Below, one piece after another: positions 3,929 to 15,576 of a stretch of 24,331 bases of DNA; the first letter of the stretch is position 1; each line of letters begins with the position of its first letter. Made by a program: the position numbers and the translations under genes. The stretch comes from a virus: positions 1 to 24,331 of IMG/VR virus record IMGVR_UViG_3300012351_000028; one strand, written 5' to 3'. The notes beneath the pieces are model-generated. The model made no database searches, was not told the DNA's origin, and was given only the letters and a program-made list of their open reading frames with translations.

Positions 3929-5626
3929 ATGAACGAACAAGCAACCGCCGTGGTTGAGCCAGCGACATCTGGACTGAGCGAGAGCGATCTGACTCGTCTT
4001 GCTGAGCAGGTGATACGCATGATGCAATCCGGCTCCCTAGACGCGCCTGCTGCCACGCCTGAACTCGTACACGGCGTCCAGGATGGCGCAATCTTTCGTA
4101 ATGGTCCGGCCAATATGGGGCAGGGCGACGACATTTCTTCGCAGACCGTCGCACTGGTGCAGAACGCACGCGCCGATATCGCTCGTGCTGGTATCACCAC
4201 CGCGACGGGCTTCATCGGCTACGATCTCAAGACACCGGCTGCAATGCTGGTACCCTTTCTCACACCGCTGCTCAACATGCTTCCGCGTGAAGGCGGCGTT
4301 GGCGTGGACATCCACAACTGGAAAGCCGTGGTTGACTTCTTCGGCGGCAATGGTCCGCAGTCGGTCATTGGTGCCGTTGCTGACGGTGGCACACCATCAT
4401 TCGTCAGCTATAGCGTCTCTGCACTCAGTAACACCTTTCAGACCATCGGCCTCATGAACTCCGAGACCTTCCAGGCACAATGGAGAGGCAGGCAATTGCA
4501 GGGAGACTTGCGAGCAACCTTAACCGCGCAATTGCTCTTTGCCTTGAAACTCGTTGAAGAGAACTGGCTGATCAATATGAGCGATAAGCTGTGGACGCCT
4601 CCGCCTATCCTCATGAGTGCAGTCAACTCCGGTGGCACAATCACCAACGCAGTCAGCACCACAATGTACTTCATTGTAACAGCGGTCAACGCCAATGGTG
4701 AGACGCTTGGAACAACGATGCAGAGCATCGCTATTCCTGGCACAACTTCGAGCATAACGCTGACGATCTTCACGGTGCCAAATGCGACGAAGTACAACGT
4801 CTACGCAGGACTGGCAAGTTCGCCGCCTGCAACAAGCGCCATGTACTTGCAGACACCCGTCGCAACCTACTTCGGCAGTGCATCCGCGCTGAACCAGCCA
4901 GCAAGCCCAATTCAGGGCAGCTTTACCGCGACCATGACCGCGCCTGCTCTTGCATCAGGCACAGCATACAGCACGCAAGCGGCGGCTGGTAACACAGCCA
5001 AAGTCGCCGTAGATGGAAGCGGAAACATCATTACCTTCCGAGGCACACAATCGCTCGTCTACAACAACCAGGCCGCTAATACCAACGTCGGCGCCGGTGG
5101 ACTCAAGCCGCAGGTGCTACAGCCTGCTGCCACGACCGGCTTCCTGGCTTTGAGCGACATTCAGCAACTCTTCACCAATATGTACCTGAACGCTCGCGCG
5201 GATCCAAAGGTGCTCTTTGTGAGTCCACAGGACGCGATCTCGGTCAATAACCTGGTTGCGACCAACGGCGAGACCCGCGTCGTTGTCGATGGCTCTTCAC
5301 CATCGGGCGGACAGATGGATTTGACGGCAGGCTTCAAAGTGACCAGGGTACTCAACCAGGTCACACAGAGCCTGGTCAATATCATCCAGCTTCCTTTCCT
5401 GGCGCAAGGCACCATGATCGCCGCGTCGTTCACCTTCCCGTATCCGGTCAGTGGCTATGGGAACACACCTTTTAGAGTCATCACGAACCAGGAATACTAC
5501 GGTGTCGATTATCCACCAACACAGCAAAATCCGATGGCATGGGGCATGGGCGACTTCGTAGATGAAACGCTGGTCATCGAATTTTTAGGTGGAATGGGCG
5601 TTTTGAACGGGATTGTCTATCACTAA
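3929..5626 (+). CDS. Major capsid protein (HK97-like fold) with inserted Ig/FN3-like domain
   Basis: At 565 aa, directly downstream of the protease and preceded by a GAGGA ribosome site. Residues of about 1-90 are charged and helical and would suit a cleaved N-terminal arm. Residues of about 95-220 and 395-565 read as an HK97-type capsid protein, including the helix LFALKLVEENWLIN before the insertion and the C-terminal P-domain-like part. Between them, residues of about 228-330 form a beta-sandwich-like domain of FN3/Ig style: YFIVTAVNANGETL, then ATKYNVYAGLAS, the usual F-G strand pattern of such domains. Capsid-borne Ig-like domains are known from several phages and are thought to help adhesion to surfaces or glycans. 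Assignment rests on position and pattern. Confidence 0.82.
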   Translation: MNEQATAVVEPATSGLSESDLTRLAEQVIRMMQSGSLDAPAATPELVHGVQDGAIFRNGPANMGQGDDISSQTVALVQNARADIARAGITTATGFIGYDLKTPAAMLVPFLTPLLNMLPREGGVGVDIHNWKAVVDFFGGNGPQSVIGAVADGGTPSFVSYSVSALSNTFQTIGLMNSETFQAQWRGRQLQGDLRATLTAQLLFALKLVEENWLINMSDKLWTPPPILMSAVNSGGTITNAVSTTMYFIVTAVNANGETLGTTMQSIAIPGTTSSITLTIFTVPNATKYNVYAGLASSPPATSAMYLQTPVATYFGSASALNQPASPIQGSFTATMTAPALASGTAYSTQAAAGNTAKVAVDGSGNIITFRGTQSLVYNNQAANTNVGAGGLKPQVLQPAATTGFLALSDIQQLFTNMYLNARADPKVLFVSPQDAISVNNLVATNGETRVVVDGSSPSGGQMDLTAGFKVTRVLNQVTQSLVNIIQLPFLAQGTMIAASFTFPYPVSGYGNTPFRVITNQEYYGVDYPPTQQNPMAWGMGDFVDETLVIEFLGGMGVLNGIVYH

Positions 5627-9017: not shown

Positions 9018-11353
9018 TGGCAGCAAAGGCCAATCCGTATGGTGTGACAATTGCCGTCTTCAACACGTCGCCGTATGCGTATTCGGCGCAACTCTTTCCC
9101 GACATCGCAACGATCGGGCTAGGATGCGTGCGCTTCCAGCAGAGTTGGTCACTTATCGAGGGTACAAAGGGCGTCTACAACTGGTCGGCGCTTGATGATA
9201 TGGTGGGTCGCTGCAATGCCAACGGCCTCTTTATCCAGTTCCCGATCAGGGGTGCTCCTGCCTGGTACATGACCACACTGGTGAATCCGGGCCAAACTAA
9301 CCGCACGACCTGCAACACAAACTTTCCGAATGACCGTATCTATAACATGGATGCAACGGCGGCGGGCGTGTTCGCTGGCATCCTTGCTCACCGCTACAAC
9401 GGCACGACGACGCCCAATTCACAGAAGCCTGGCACCTTTCTCTTCATCGATGCTATTGAGATCGGCAACGAGGATTTTGACGTTTTTTATGATTGTAACG
9501 CGGGTACCGGGGTCGGATACTTAGGCCAGGAAGGTCGCCTGGCAAAGTGGTACAATCCGGTGGTGGTGGCAGCAGCGCCTGCTATACGGACGAACTCGCC
9601 GAATACGCTTGTCGGCATGTTCGGCTCGTGGTGGAAGGATAACCTCCATCGCACGCAGTTCTTGACCGACATGTATAACGGGGTGGGTGTCTCAGGGCAA
9701 AACGTGGCGGCACTCTTAGACTACTTCAACTTCCACTTCTATCATAGCGGCAGCGACCCAAACGTCGATATCACCACGCTGGATGTGTCGCTGCCGCACG
9801 TCATCACGAACCTGTATAATGTCGTGACATCACATAGTGACACCAAACACTTCTGGGTCACCGAAATTGGCTGGACCGCGCAGGAGTTCTCAGGCGATCC
9901 CACAGACCCGACAGAGGCCACCATTGCAACCTACTATCAAGAGGCGCTGGACGAGATGCGCACCAGTGGCGTGGTTGACCGCTTCAACCTCTTCACGATG
10001 GCCTACACCACGCAGGCGGCCGGCAGCTGGGCGGCCGGCAAATCGCTCACGCAACCGACTGGCTATAGCCCGCACCTTGAGCCGGCCGCCTTTACGATCC
10101 AGAGCTATATCAATAATTACCCGCAGTGGAACGTGACAGCAGCAACGGTGCCATTATCTGTCTCTTCGACAAGCCTCTCGTTTACCGCTCCCTCCGATGG
10201 CAGTGACCCGGCCAGCCAAAGTGTGACGCTGACCAATCCCAACAGCGCCAGTGTGAGCTATACGACGTCAAGCAGCGTATCCTGGCTCAGAGTCTCACCT
10301 GCCTCTGGCACGGTTGCCGGGAGCAATGGCACTGCCACCAGCAGTATCAGCGCCTCGGGTGTGGGCAATTTTGCGCCCGGCACCTATAGCGGCGCTATCA
10401 CCTATGTGACGCCGTACGGGAGCACGGTCGTGACCTGTTACCTCTCTGTCCTCACTACTGTCGTGCCTGCCACGTTCTACGGGCAGGGAGTCTATGAAAA
10501 CCACGGGCCGCAGAACGGGCCAGCCTTCTATCAGCCACGCTTGAATCAGATAGCTGCGGCAGGCTTTAAGCTGGTCATGAACTATGACCTGCTCTTCGGC
10601 CATGCCAGCGATATCACCGCCTATATCAATTACGCGGCCACAGTTGGCTTGCAGGTCATCGTTGCCTTGAACAATCCGGTGATCTGGAAAACGAATCAGA
10701 TTGCCGCCACGTTTCCGAACCTGTATGCCGACTCAGGAAACCAGAGCACCGATAATGGCTTTACAACCTATGTCGTGAACCTGGTCAAAGGCTTACCAGG
10801 GACGTGGGGCTACTACGTCGCTGACGAGGTGGCGAATTCCGATCACGCAGCTTTACTCACACATGCCAATTATATCAAGGCGGCAGACCCCAATCATCCG
10901 CGCCTGATTATCTCCAATGGCGCCAGCACGGATGCTGTGTACACCGGGACGAGCCTTCTGGCTGATTGCTGTGAGGTATTGGGAGACGACTACTACCCGA
11001 TAGGGGACTCAGCCGCGTATGCCAATTCGCTCACGTATCGCGCTCAGCACATCCAGAACTTTTGCAACGGCAAAAATATCTACTCAGCCATTTCGCTTCA
11101 GGCGCATAGCCTTGCGCCTTACAACATCCTTGGTCCCTGGCCGACCCTGGCACAGATGCAAGCAAATCTCGCAACGGTGAAAGCCAACATGTATCCGCGT
11201 CTCATCCTCTGGTACAGCTACTTCGATGTGATTGCCACAGGCTCACCAGAGTACGCGCCGCCTGGCCAGTTCTCCGCGTTGGCCGAATCCATCCAGCAGC
11301 GATCAGGCATTGCGCTCTTTCCAGCAACGCAGAGAAGGGGGATCAAACCGTGA
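9017..11353 (+). CDS. Two-barrel glycoside-hydrolase-like virion protein with central BACON-like domain
   Basis: A 778-aa protein. Residues of about 5-375 form a clan GH-A-type TIM barrel: the Asn-Glu pair N151-E152 in IEIGNEDF fits the acid/base after strand 4, and E283 in FWVTEIGWT fits the strand-7 nucleophile, 131 residues later. Residues of about 378-480 are a BACON/Ig-like sandwich (LSVSSTSLSFTAP to SWLRVSPASGTV). Residues of about 484-770 form a second barrel (GFKLVMNYDLLFG, YYVADEVAN with D603-E604). That barrel lacks an evident strand-7 Glu and may only bind, or may use different chemistry. The gene follows the beta-helix gene directly with GGAGG six bases upstream. The likely role is degradation or binding of host or environmental glycan; the substrate cannot be read from sequence. 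Confidence 0.8.
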   Translation: MAAKANPYGVTIAVFNTSPYAYSAQLFPDIATIGLGCVRFQQSWSLIEGTKGVYNWSALDDMVGRCNANGLFIQFPIRGAPAWYMTTLVNPGQTNRTTCNTNFPNDRIYNMDATAAGVFAGILAHRYNGTTTPNSQKPGTFLFIDAIEIGNEDFDVFYDCNAGTGVGYLGQEGRLAKWYNPVVVAAAPAIRTNSPNTLVGMFGSWWKDNLHRTQFLTDMYNGVGVSGQNVAALLDYFNFHFYHSGSDPNVDITTLDVSLPHVITNLYNVVTSHSDTKHFWVTEIGWTAQEFSGDPTDPTEATIATYYQEALDEMRTSGVVDRFNLFTMAYTTQAAGSWAAGKSLTQPTGYSPHLEPAAFTIQSYINNYPQWNVTAATVPLSVSSTSLSFTAPSDGSDPASQSVTLTNPNSASVSYTTSSSVSWLRVSPASGTVAGSNGTATSSISASGVGNFAPGTYSGAITYVTPYGSTVVTCYLSVLTTVVPATFYGQGVYENHGPQNGPAFYQPRLNQIAAAGFKLVMNYDLLFGHASDITAYINYAATVGLQVIVALNNPVIWKTNQIAATFPNLYADSGNQSTDNGFTTYVVNLVKGLPGTWGYYVADEVANSDHAALLTHANYIKAADPNHPRLIISNGASTDAVYTGTSLLADCCEVLGDDYYPIGDSAAYANSLTYRAQHIQNFCNGKNIYSAISLQAHSLAPYNILGPWPTLAQMQANLATVKANMYPRLILWYSYFDVIATGSPEYAPPGQFSALAESIQQRSGIALFPATQRRGIKP

Positions 11354-12477: not shown

Positions 12478-13374
12478 ATGAATAGCTATATCTCGCATTT
12501 AGACTACATGAGATCACCAAGCGGACTAGAAACTGCCAGTCTGCTCGGTAATAGCTTGTTCTTGTCAGCCTCGCTTAGCGCAGGCGTAACCGTGCTGCTC
12601 GTCACGCCAACAACGGTACAGCTTAATCTCTATGATCGTGTGACCATCTTCGACGGCCCAAATAGTGAGGTAGTCGTTGTGGCGGGGCTTACGAGCGTAG
12701 GAGCAAACGGAATCGGAATACAAGCGCCTGGCTTGCAGTATGCCCATGCAGCCGGTACGCCGTGCTGCTCTGATGGCATCCTTGGCTCGTTGGCAGATGT
12801 GCTTGTCGATGCCTCCGCATGGATGGAAGAAGATTTGACCTATCAATCGCTCTTTCAGCAGACATACGCAGGCGAGGTGTTACCGCTACCAAGTATGCTG
12901 GCCAGCATCACCAATCAAAACGGCCTGTTGTTCCGACCAAAGCACTTCCCGGTGACAGCCGTGAGTAGCATCGCACTTGCAGCCGCGCAAGGACAGGCGA
13001 CAACCTTTGACGCGACGCAGGCATTCATCGACGCCAATCAGCAGTATGTGAAAGTGCCTGTGCTCTCAGGTTCAGGCAATCAAGGTCAGGTCTTCTGGCC
13101 GCAGCAGCCATTCGATAGGCGTGCTGAGCAGTGGCTGACGATCTCATACACGGCTGGTTACGCGCCTGCAAATCTACCGAGTGGTGTGCGCGAAATCGTG
13201 ATCTTGCTGGCATCGGATATCTTGAGTAGGCGTACTAATCCTAGCGGGGCAGATCAACGAGATGAGGGAAAACTTCATCTCGTAACAACACTAAGAGGCG
13301 ATGCCAGCGGCGAAAGTTTACTTGTAAAACGAGCTAGACGTATGTCCGCTAGATATAAGGTGAGGGCAATCTAA
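12478..13374 (+). CDS. Head-tail connector (adaptor) protein with inserted beta module
   Basis: A 298-aa protein. Residues of about 100-298 fit the HK97 gp6/SPP1 gp15-type adaptor that docks below the portal: helical repeats, LTISYTAGYAPANLPSGVREIVILLASDILSRR, and a basic C-terminus. Residues of about 20-97 (SASLSAGVTVLLVTPTTVQL to QYAHAAGTPC) form a small beta module of the kind often inserted into phage connector and tail proteins; a related copy lies in the tail-tip hub. The ribosome site is weak (GTGAG). The last codons (KVRAI, stop) are echoed at 14230-14240 beyond the HNH insert, suggesting the insert landed exactly at this gene's end. Confidence 0.78.
   Translation: MNSYISHLDYMRSPSGLETASLLGNSLFLSASLSAGVTVLLVTPTTVQLNLYDRVTIFDGPNSEVVVVAGLTSVGANGIGIQAPGLQYAHAAGTPCCSDGILGSLADVLVDASAWMEEDLTYQSLFQQTYAGEVLPLPSMLASITNQNGLLFRPKHFPVTAVSSIALAAAQGQATTFDATQAFIDANQQYVKVPVLSGSGNQGQVFWPQQPFDRRAEQWLTISYTAGYAPANLPSGVREIVILLASDILSRRTNPSGADQRDEGKLHLVTTLRGDASGESLLVKRARRMSARYKVRAI
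13360..13370 (+). repeat. Left copy of the direct repeat flanking the HNH insert
   Basis: GTGAGGGCAAT at 13360-13370 matches GTGAGGGCGAT at 14230-14240 in 10 of 11 bases. The left copy encodes the last residues (VRAI) of the connector protein. The right copy would encode the same residues and is also the ribosome site of the following gene. Confidence 0.6.
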
Positions 13375-13380
13375 ATGGTA

Positions 13381-14094
13381 CTACAGCAATCTACCACCCT
13401 CTGGCCATTCATGAGGCAATCTAAATGCCTTGCGATTATTGCAGCGTTGACAGGCAATCACCAGATTATCAGGGCCATTAGAACCGCCTCTACTGAGTGG
13501 CATCACATGGTCAACGTGGTACTTGGTGAGCTTCTTATGGCAGTAGTAGCATTTACCTTTTTGTCTCTGATATTGAGCCTCTATATCTTGCACTGTATGT
13601 TTGCCTGTATTCATTTTTTGTCTAGAGCGGCGCAAGTGAGAAAGGACTTTACTCTTAGCTCTACCTTCCTCACTCGTTCGACGAGAACTTATGCATTTCT
13701 TGCATATGGCTCTCAGGTGATCGGGCTTGCTACCATCGGATTGAAAGTATTCAAGAGTTGCAGGGTAGGGCTTTTCACAGATAGAGCAGGTTTTTATAGT
13801 CCCATCAGGCGGATATTTGCCGAACTTTTGTCCATTTTTCTGCTTTCTACACGCTCTACAGGTGCCACAAAGGCCATATTTCTCAGTAGAGCTAAGAGTA
13901 AAGTATTCATGTGTAGCAGGCAATACTTGCTTACATTCCTTACAGCGCTTATAGCCTTTTGGAACAGTATGTCTCTTTGTAGAACATCGGCAATTCTTGC
14001 AGCGAGCATGAAAGCCATCAGGGGATTTGGTTTCACGATGAAAGTAATGAAGTGTAGCAGGGTACTCTTGCTGGCATTTACAGCAACGTTTCAT
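13381..14094 (-). CDS. HNH endonuclease with three tandem zinc-ribbon modules
   Basis: A 237-aa protein read on the minus strand. Three cysteine modules follow one another: C4-x2-C7 with C32-x2-C35, C51-x2-C54 with C76-x2-C79, and C103-x2-C106 with C131-x2-C134. Each contains the same PAT-x-x-YF repeat (residues 12, 59, 111). The C-terminal HNH nuclease has C182-x2-C185, H193-V-D-H196, N210 and C215-x2-C218, and ends LPHEWPEGGRL, a common ending in this family. HNH enzymes cut DNA; free-standing ones drive their own spread. AAGGAG sits about eight bases before the ATG. The opposite + strand frame (13375-14244) is a shadow. The first three modules probably recognise DNA (inference). Confidence 0.9.
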   Translation of the reverse strand: MKRCCKCQQEYPATLHYFHRETKSPDGFHARCKNCRCSTKRHTVPKGYKRCKECKQVLPATHEYFTLSSTEKYGLCGTCRACRKQKNGQKFGKYPPDGTIKTCSICEKPYPATLEYFQSDGSKPDHLRAICKKCISSRRTSEEGRAKSKVLSHLRRSRQKMNTGKHTVQDIEAQYQRQKGKCYYCHKKLTKYHVDHVMPLSRGGSNGPDNLVIACQRCNNRKAFRLPHEWPEGGRLL

Positions 14095-14099
14095 GGTCT

Positions 14100-14116
14100 A
14101 ACTCCTTCAGTTAGTT
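14100..14116 (-). promoter_or_regulatory. Hairpin holding the HNH ribosome-binding site
   Basis: Read on the minus strand, CTAACT-GAAGG-AGTTAG forms a six-base stem with the Shine-Dalgarno GAAGG in its loop, just upstream of the HNH start at 14094. Hairpins over ribosome sites are known to delay or limit translation of homing endonucleases in T4-like phages. This one is short, so the effect would be mild. Confidence 0.4.
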
Positions 14117-14194
14117 CCTTGTGTTGTCGCGTGCCAGGTGTCAAGGAAACACTTTTCGCCTTGGTTCATGACGCCAATGCTATGCACGCATCTC

Positions 14195-14223
14195 ATTATA
14201 TCATTCTTTACCTGCCATTAAAA
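14195..14223 (-). promoter_or_regulatory. Candidate promoter of the HNH gene
   Basis: On the minus strand a perfect TATAAT (14195-14200) is preceded at 17 bases by TTTTAA (14218-14223), a weak -35 box. It lies inside the insert about 100 bases before the HNH start. This would let the gene be expressed against the direction of the surrounding operon. Confidence 0.45.
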
Positions 14224-14229
14224 GCGGAA

Positions 14230-14240
14230 GTGAGGGCGAT
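14230..14240 (+). repeat. Right copy of the direct repeat flanking the HNH insert
   Basis: GTGAGGGCGAT, differing in one base from the copy at 13360-13370. It supplies the GAGG ribosome site for the small membrane-protein gene that begins at 14241. Confidence 0.6.
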
Positions 14241-14351
14241 ATGAGCAAAGCTGAGAAAGTCGGAGCGATCATCCTGTTGCTATGGTGCCTCCTGTGGGGC
14301 GTGTTTTTCGGCTATCTCATCTTTGTGATGCCTGATTACGGGGTGCATTGA
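14241..14351 (+). CDS. 36-residue single-pass membrane protein
   Basis: Too short for most gene callers. The ATG at 14241 follows GTGAGGG, and the TGA overlaps the ATG of the head-closure gene, so the frame is tightly coupled. The product is MSKAEK, a hydrophobic span of about 23 residues (VGAIILLLWCLLWGVFFGYLIFV) and MPDYGVH; a short basic N-terminus before the span suggests N-in orientation. A membrane protein inside the connector genes is unusual. Its role is unknown; superinfection exclusion or a lysis-related role can only be guessed. Confidence 0.6.
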   Translation: MSKAEKVGAIILLLWCLLWGVFFGYLIFVMPDYGVH

Positions 14352-14644
14352 TGCCAGCAAACGAGATCAAGATCATGACGCAGCAACGCGCAGGAGCGGC
14401 CTTAGCACAGCACATTCCGTGCAGGCTGTTCAACGTCAACATGCCAATCGAGATGATGGCGCAAGGCGGTATTCCTGTGGATATTTTCGACTTGTTCACG
14501 GACTGGATTACGCTCAGCGTGCAGCGTGGCGATTATTTCATCGATGAGGTAACGAACGCGCAGTATAGCGTGTATGGCCGTCCTGCGTACTACGGCAATC
14601 ATCTTGAGGCGAGGGTGACGATACCGACAGGAGCGGTGCCATAA
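14351..14644 (+). CDS. Putative head-closure protein
   Basis: A 97-aa protein. The ATG at 14351 overlaps the stop of the membrane-protein gene; a TTG three bases earlier is a less likely start. The C-terminal half (GDYFIDEVTNAQYSVYGRPAYYGNHLEARVTI) has the beta-barrel style of head-closure proteins such as SPP1 gp16 or HK97-type head-tail joining proteins. These sit under the adaptor and stop DNA leakage. Its order after the adaptor and before the gp10-like gene agrees. Confidence 0.65.
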   Translation: MPANEIKIMTQQRAGAALAQHIPCRLFNVNMPIEMMAQGGIPVDIFDLFTDWITLSVQRGDYFIDEVTNAQYSVYGRPAYYGNHLEARVTIPTGAVP

Positions 14645-15072
14645 TGCCAGATTTTACGATTATTACGCAATTTGACGAGGCCAGTCTGAGAACAGTAGCG
14701 CGATTTGCAGAGTTTCAGGGCTTCTATGAGATGCGCCTCTACGATGCTGGACAGGCGAGCTTAGAGGCATTGCAGCGTGAAGCGGTGGAATATATGGACG
14801 CCAGGTTCATGAATCCAACGGGACAACTTGCCGATAGCTTAGAGGCGCAAATGCTCACACCATACGAGGGGCAGCTCGGCACCAATATGCCGTATGCCAG
14901 GCGTCGAGAATGGGGATTCAGCGGGATGACCGATGCATTAGGACGCTACTATCCAAATGACCCTGGTATCGGCTATATGGAAGCGGCGATCAGATTGGCA
15001 GCACCTGACATCACGAAATACTACGAAACGGCTGTCAAGCAGACCGTTGCTGATCTCGGAGGGACACCGTAA
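14644..15072 (+). CDS. HK97 gp10-like neck / head-tail joining protein
   Basis: A 142-aa protein whose ATG shares a base with the previous stop, with AGGAG upstream. The helical N-terminal half with many Glu/Ala/Arg residues (ASLEALQREAVEYMDARF), then a central LADSLEAQML and PYARRREWGFSGMTDALGR, matches the HK97 gp10/tail-completion style. In that family a Y-A-x-x-x-E-x-G pattern is typical, as seen here. It would link the head-closure ring to the tail terminator. Length is normal for the family. Confidence 0.72.
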   Translation: MPDFTIITQFDEASLRTVARFAEFQGFYEMRLYDAGQASLEALQREAVEYMDARFMNPTGQLADSLEAQMLTPYEGQLGTNMPYARRREWGFSGMTDALGRYYPNDPGIGYMEAAIRLAAPDITKYYETAVKQTVADLGGTP

Positions 15073-15576
15073 ATGACACTCAACAGTAGTCGTCTCATCA
15101 TCGCTCAAGGCATTGTTGCCATGCTGCAAGGCGTCCAGAATGGCGCGAGTGCGCTCTATGGCGAGGTTAAACTTGGTAGCGTCTTTGACCCGACGCCGTT
15201 TACAAGCTGGTGTGAAGTGACGTTCCATCAGGCCAGAAGCGGGCCAGCGGGAAGCGGAGGGAACCTTATCGGGTGGAGGATTGAAGACAATCCGATCTTT
15301 AAGATTACGTCGGGGTGGGATTACGAGGCAGACAGCACGGCGGCCATGACCAATATGCTGACGGCAATGGATATCCTGATGCCCCTACTGCACAGCCATT
15401 ACCAGATACCAGCGCCGAACAATCCGACGCAAGCCATAGCCAGCGTGTACAGCTTGCTCGAAGATCAACCCGAGCGCGCGATGCCTGTCAGGTTCCCGAA
15501 TGGTAGAGTTTATATTTTATGGGAGACATTCGTAACCGCAAAGCAACAATACAATGTTCAATTGAGTTCGCCGTAA
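15073..15576 (+). CDS. Putative tail terminator / tail completion protein
   Basis: A 167-aa protein with GGAGGG about ten bases before the ATG. It comes between the gp10-like neck gene and the tail tube gene, the usual location of the tail terminator, a ring that stops tube growth and joins the tail to the head. The N-terminus is a helix (RLIIAQGIVAMLQGVQ), followed by strands and a central helix (AMTNMLTAMDILMPLL), which fits the alpha/beta fold of that family. The assignment rests mostly on gene order. Confidence 0.6.
   Translation: MTLNSSRLIIAQGIVAMLQGVQNGASALYGEVKLGSVFDPTPFTSWCEVTFHQARSGPAGSGGNLIGWRIEDNPIFKITSGWDYEADSTAAMTNMLTAMDILMPLLHSHYQIPAPNNPTQAIASVYSLLEDQPERAMPVRFPNGRVYILWETFVTAKQQYNVQLSSP

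Follow-up and report, generated by a model that had tools for sequence, protein, structure and literature searches.

A backwards HNH endonuclease cassette in a phage late operon, with a stop-free operon-strand frame as a possible path for ribosomes

How can a selfish gene lie backwards in an essential operon without silencing the genes behind it? This question is raised by the window, the whole stretch of 24,331 nucleotides analysed here (positions 1 to 24,331 of IMG/VR virus record IMGVR_UViG_3300012351_000028). Within it, an HNH endonuclease gene reads against an operon whose genes around the insert are all on the plus strand (Table 1). A first-pass annotation of this DNA had proposed that an 11-bp direct repeat flanks the insert and rebuilds the end of the host gene. 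Both copies of the repeat were found at the proposed places, 870 bases apart on either side of the antisense HNH gene, and both encode VRAI followed by a stop in the connector frame (870 = 290 x 3). Removal of the insert together with one repeat copy indeed leaves a connector stop that overlaps the next ATG (ATGA), and neither gene beside the insert is broken, in agreement with the proposal that the element entered without harm. The description of such overlaps as the style used throughout this genome is roughly right: a gap of 0 or an overlap is found at 10 of the 24 listed junctions.

Table 1. Features of the insert and its surroundings (window coordinates).
Feature	Position	Strand	Evidence or remark
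Head-tail connector gene, 298 aa, upstream of the insert	12478..13374	+	PHROG 442 head-tail adaptor, E=5.2e-5
Functional connector end, AAG GTG AGG GCA ATC TAA (KVRAI-stop)	13357..13374	+	
Repeat copy 1, GTGAGGGCAAT	13360..13370	+	
Bridge frame, 289 codons, stop-free across the whole insert	13375..14244	+	ORF listing
HNH endonuclease gene, 237 aa, C-terminal HNH domain	13381..14094	-	Pfam HNH 1.4e-12; PHROG 1035 endonuclease VII 4e-30
Hairpin CTAACT-GAAGG-AGTTAG holding the HNH ribosome site	14098..14114	-	6-pair stem, p=0.02 in the window
HNH leader RNA, int-alpA-like fold	14116..14190	-	Rfam RF02996, 28 bits, E=3.5e-4
TATAAT, -10 hexamer common to family leaders; -35 region weak here	14195..14200	-	
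Second gene end, GAA GTG AGG GCG ATA TGA (EVRAI-stop), last bridge codons	14227..14244	+	
Repeat copy 2, GTGAGGGCGAT	14230..14240	+	
36-aa membrane-like ORF	14241..14351	+	Present in 0/7 relatives
97-aa connector-region gene	14351..14644	+	Directly after the connector in 6/7 relatives

To place the insert, we used seven distinct relative contigs identified from matches to the connector, tail and capsid proteins (L018 to L022, L024 and L025; L024 is the same contig as L002, L015 and L016, and L018 the same as L017). The insert has a G+C content of 0.442, whereas the record as a whole has 0.532 (a lower value occurs in 1 of 470 windows), and none of the seven relatives carries an HNH gene after the connector. 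Both findings support the view that the insert is foreign and that the HNH gene entered at the junction of the connector and its next gene. Insertion between genes that are adjacent in relatives is a trait of free-standing homing endonucleases, and the gene is absent from this place in 7/7. The empty-site comparison proposed in the first-pass annotation thus bore out the absence of the insert; the exact predicted junction was not found in these relatives, and it cannot be matched because none of them has the 36-aa ORF. In five relatives (L019, L020, L021, L022 and L025), the end of the connector and the start of the 97-aa gene overlap; the gap is 21 nt in L018, and L024 has two other small ORFs at this junction. 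The connector protein is 65-66% identical to that of L002/L024; the closest relative, L024 (66%), likewise has a connector of 298 aa, which ends KVRSM-TAA in the same column. Scans of genome contigs yielded no prophage relative, and GenBank phages gave no match to the connector.

Compared with L024, L018, L019 and L020 (34-2178 to 23389), the record is mosaic, with head genes nearest to L024 and tail genes nearest to L018-L020. Window genes up to the connector are nearest to L024 (capsid 80% and connector 66% identical), the 97-aa gene is 18% identical to L024 and 34-41% to the other relatives, and the 167-aa gene is 74% identical to L018. This switch of nearest relative is not clean, as a 142-aa gene is again nearest to L024 (46%). 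A further contig (L023), ~100% identical to the window, ends near window position 11343, short of the insert site and just before the tail-fibre-like and connector genes.

The HNH domain scored well above the curated cut-off (PF01844, 48 bits versus 21.4), and by our own reading the protein appears to carry zinc-finger-like CxxC repeats. Searches with the HNH protein found 12 loci, and those with an alignment of nine members found 40. The family shares a nearly invariant tail, [KR]LPHEWPEGGRL. In most full-length members with a readable 5' side, TATAAT lies 71-135 nt before the matched region, and a structured leader, of which there are two kinds, comes after it. As TATAAT and a structured leader precede the gene in most of these members, the mobile unit probably consists of promoter, leader and gene. 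The hairpin over the ribosome site is weak as a family trait (mean stem 4.96 versus 3.93, 24 loci). Rfam gave no match at gathering score in the window, either to a group I intron or to another catalogued RNA element.

The first kind of leader resembles the int-alpA RNA (RF02996), whose three-way fold is matched in the window leader, in L036 (291-368, 32 bits) and at a second site in L033 (461-398, 35 bits); all scores lie below the gathering score of 35.8, and the window leader is accordingly int-alpA-like rather than a member. The tie between int-alpA-like RNA and HNH leaders comes from the present analysis. The second copy in L033 lies after capsid-region genes and before a 66-aa ORF, and by our own reading the loop CCUU of the int-alpA-like fold seems able to pair with a downstream AAGG. 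The second kind of leader, also placed after TATAAT, has an outer stem and an inner hairpin (e.g., GCCAGAG-CGATGCTGGAAACATCC-CCTGGC) and is found 5' of the HNH gene in L010, L022, L026-L029, L031, L037, L048, L049, L051 and L052. It had no Rfam match, and for class A leaders Rfam gave no match to an HNH leader.

Opposite this cassette, the operon strand carries an open frame, the bridge, which had been absent from the first-pass annotation and which offers a better explanation of the unharmed operon. The bridge starts with an ATG directly after the connector TAA and ends with a TGA that overlaps the ATG at 14241. In six loci (window, L007, L022, L036, L048 and L051), the whole cassette is stop-free in the bridge frame. 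At 7 of 16 loci, the stop of the bridge and the start of the following gene overlap, by 1-13 nt (window, L022, L029, where the start is a GTG, L036, L037, L048 and L057). At the 5' end, the window has TAA-ATG and L022 has ATGA, and an AGGAGG- or GGGAGG-like site lies just before the ATG at the HNH stop in L026, L037 and L038. The displaced gene end forms the last bridge codons in the window (EVRAI-stop) and in L051 (KMYART-stop). As the bridge ends on the displaced gene end, the 11-bp repeat is tied to the bridge; in the window, this second gene end also holds a GAGGG ribosome-site-like motif for the next gene. Counting against the bridge as an explanation, it has no clear start in L007 and stops inside the leader in L026, L027 and L031. 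L022, a relative of the window phage, has its own backwards HNH gene (4290-5141) with a bridge frame two junctions further on, between homologues of window genes 14644-15072 and 15073-15576.

Besides the open frame and the end points of the bridge, we show that openness is linked to orientation across the HNH family. Counts of antisense stops had divided the family into two groups, and orientation was then examined as the cause. Of 42 candidate loci, 27 members were tested after removal of 6 near-copies and 9 short pieces, and orientation was taken from the majority strand of neighbouring coding DNA, leaving out ORFs that overlap the HNH gene. Eighteen members are inverted relative to their operon and nine are codirectional. 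We measured openness as the fraction of the HNH gene spanned by its longest stop-free antisense stretch. In the inverted group, 11 members have the full value of 1.00, 14 reach 0.96 or more, and the other four have 0.89, 0.87, 0.74 and 0.43; in the codirectional group, eight of the nine lie at 0.42-0.74, and L054 has 0.99 (Mann-Whitney p=3e-4; sense-strand control p=0.63). L055 and L059, inverted without a bridge, and L054, codirectional with one, count against the link. Five remoter homologues from annotated phages share the direction of their next gene, and their openness is 0.25-0.71. The tree of the 27 members is poorly resolved (2 of 24 branches starred); on the best tree, orientation changes 8 times and is unclustered (389 of 500 shuffles were as low), and only 2 independent supported orientation pairs were obtained, too few for significance in a sign test.

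Could this openness be a functionless by-product of HNH codon bias or base composition? Rarity of TTA, CTA and TCA by itself leaves antisense frames in the codon register open, and L054, with a G+C content of 0.55, is 99% open despite being codirectional. However, codirectional relatives of like G+C use these codons freely: they make up 52 of 186 leucine and serine codons there, versus 29 of 432 in inverted members (Fisher p=9e-12). When synonymous codons were resampled from codirectional members, p was at most 0.02 in 14 of the 18 inverted loci; shuffling within genes is uninformative, as the antisense codon register depends on codon make-up alone. Two inverted loci, L007 and L036, use TTA, CTA and TCA freely and are open in a different antisense frame, although their codon-register frame holds 6-8 antisense stops. 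Non-coding DNA of the leader and promoter is open as well: past the HNH start, the bridge frame stays open for a median of 136.5 nt, versus 23 nt for the other two frames (p=4e-5, over the 14 loci whose openness is 0.96 or more). HNH codons therefore cannot explain the bridge frame in this part, and we regard a by-product as very unlikely. The gene-like starts and stops of several loci would also suit a frame that encodes a functional protein, such as a nuclease inhibitor, instead of just a path for ribosomes. Against this, the bridge translation in the window matched no Pfam family and had nothing better than PHROG 1299 (holin) at E=0.41, and two different frames serve in different loci, which means that their amino acids cannot be the same. 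A protein product with its own function is, in our estimate, highly improbable.

The repeat calls for an explanation of its own. At each of 23 loci, the sequence past the HNH stop was scored against the sequence ahead of the promoter, with 506 cross pairs as a background. Among the loci other than the window, 2 of 22 (L044 and L051) reach a score of at least 11, both scoring 11, versus none of the 506 cross pairs. The repeats of the window and of L031 score 8, a value that 21 cross pairs reach, and 19 of the 23 loci score at most 7. The window pair is thus not significant in this DNA comparison, nor is it at the protein level (p=0.22). The L031 repeat, with p=0.095, was not counted as a repeat case. 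In L051 both flanks encode the end of one gene (KMYARS-stop and KMYART-stop), and in L044 both encode the start of one gene (AKTVYKPPTH and AKTIIHKPPTH). These flank pairs look like two diverged coding alleles, which homing with co-conversion would fit better than target duplication. This allele reading of doubled gene ends covers two clear loci and the window, where the GCA/GCG, ATC/ATA and TAA/TGA differences between the two VRAI-stop copies are all silent.

A short target duplication, made by a transposon-like cut-and-fill insertion, would likewise leave a near-perfect short direct repeat around the insert, and the repeats of L031, L044 and L051 are similarly spaced, at +11 to +15 from the HNH stop and -64 to -54 from TATAAT (-37 in the window). 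Yet the copies differ mostly at silent sites and vary in length, most loci have no repeat, and a repeat search found no long inverted repeats at the insert ends. As the L051 and L044 flanks resemble diverged alleles and the window differences are silent, the repeat was probably not made by target duplication at entry, and this origin is unlikely overall. A transposon with a target-site duplication does not fit the window, where the repeat is a 10/11 match with silent differences and the ends lack an inverted repeat pair. Could the HNH gene be an ordinary one, and the two copies chance-alike ribosome-site-like motifs (GTGAGGG) before two starts? Each copy lies 4-9 nt ahead of an ATG, and a match of at least 10/11 arose in 54 of 400 draws when stretches of 101 and 206 bases were compared (a few overlapping draws were skipped yet counted in the 400). 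With 30 x 30 bases, it arose in 12 of 3000 draws, and the record has just two occurrences of GTGAGGGCRAT (shuffle mean 0.04). Against chance motifs, both copies lie in the connector frame and encode VRAI-stop, and gene ends are doubled in L051 and L044 too. A 10/11 match alone is weak, and the repeat stands modestly above chance through its place and reading frame, not its length; we consider two chance motifs quite unlikely.

The window also holds an exact 13-bp repeat, GGCAATCTAAATG, at 13365-13377 and 13415-13427, which is stronger than the 11-bp repeat and was absent from the first-pass annotation. It is the sole exact 13-mer pair at most 100 nt apart in the record, its second copy sits within the conserved HNH tail codons, and it extends to ~16/17 with TGAGG/TGAGGG in front. 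Candidate origins are chance, template switching and homology-guided entry.

The explanation that we favour as likely is an inverted HNH cassette of homing type that brings its own "ribosome bridge" and so protects the operon from polarity, with translation of the bridge inferred from sequence. The cassette, a putative free-standing homing unit with promoter, structured leader and gene, lies in a soil phage, inverted within the late operon. On completing the connector, ribosomes would begin again at 13375, travel through the insert and pass on to the gene behind it. Rho stops untranslated mRNA. A message covered by ribosomes would suffer no Rho-type polarity and expose no bare antisense stretch, and translational coupling would be restored. 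Both repeat copies would represent the end of the connector gene: the copy beside the HNH stop would finish the connector, whereas the copy beside the HNH promoter would be the former gene end, now serving as the tail of the bridge and supplying the next gene with its ribosome site. As the gene ends are allele-like and the nearest relative changes at the border between the connector and the 97-aa gene, the two copies are most likely two alleles, joined when the cassette was copied together with its flank (homing with co-conversion, on the HNH 3' side).

For the family as a whole, we lean somewhat towards a selfish nuclease cassette that is double-coding by selection. On landing backwards, such a cassette would carry or evolve a stop-free operon-sense bridge through coding region, leader and promoter; one of two frames would serve, and the displaced gene end would close the bridge, keeping the next gene translationally coupled. 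In this way, an inverted selfish gene could be tolerated by an essential operon, whose genes would stay active through a ribosome path instead of terminators, and antisense overlap, polarity and translational coupling would become testable in one small element. The bridge may also explain long "ghost" ORFs opposite phage nucleases; for annotation, this is a warning that ORFs opposite nucleases may be selected without encoding a useful protein.

How does this cassette compare with known systems? In the literature covered, drawn mainly from outside the subscription journals, we found no description of an antisense homing gene crossed by an open frame in the operon sense. The window resembles the free-standing mob and seg homing endonucleases of T4-like phages, as described in the accessible part of one source, in that a nuclease gene with its own promoter lies between essential structural genes, with hairpins over the ribosome site; in T4-like phages the flanks are co-converted (PMC2988022), as may be the case in the window. 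According to the same part, all T4 homing genes other than segD lie along their operon, and segD is inverted and said to be surrounded by terminators (PMC2988022). Unlike in the window, we found no bridge opposite segD, the longest open operon-sense stretch being 59 of 224 codons. As segD is inverted and has no bridge, the bridge is one solution, not a law. Nuclease genes have also been placed at boundaries of genetic exchange (PMC10448857), and the window HNH gene likewise adjoins a mosaic border; antisense frames and doubled gene ends are not mentioned in the accessible part of that work (PMC10448857). In the ShiLan element, as far as the available portion of its description goes, an HNH gene hidden in a methylase gene overlaps a frame kept open for the host gene, on the same strand, out of frame and inside the methylase (PMC11855218). 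The window HNH gene is antisense and bridges two operon genes, and therefore differs in type from ShiLan (PMC11855218). ShiLan nevertheless is the nearest published idea: a frame kept open for the host across an HNH gene, there on the same strand (PMC11855218).
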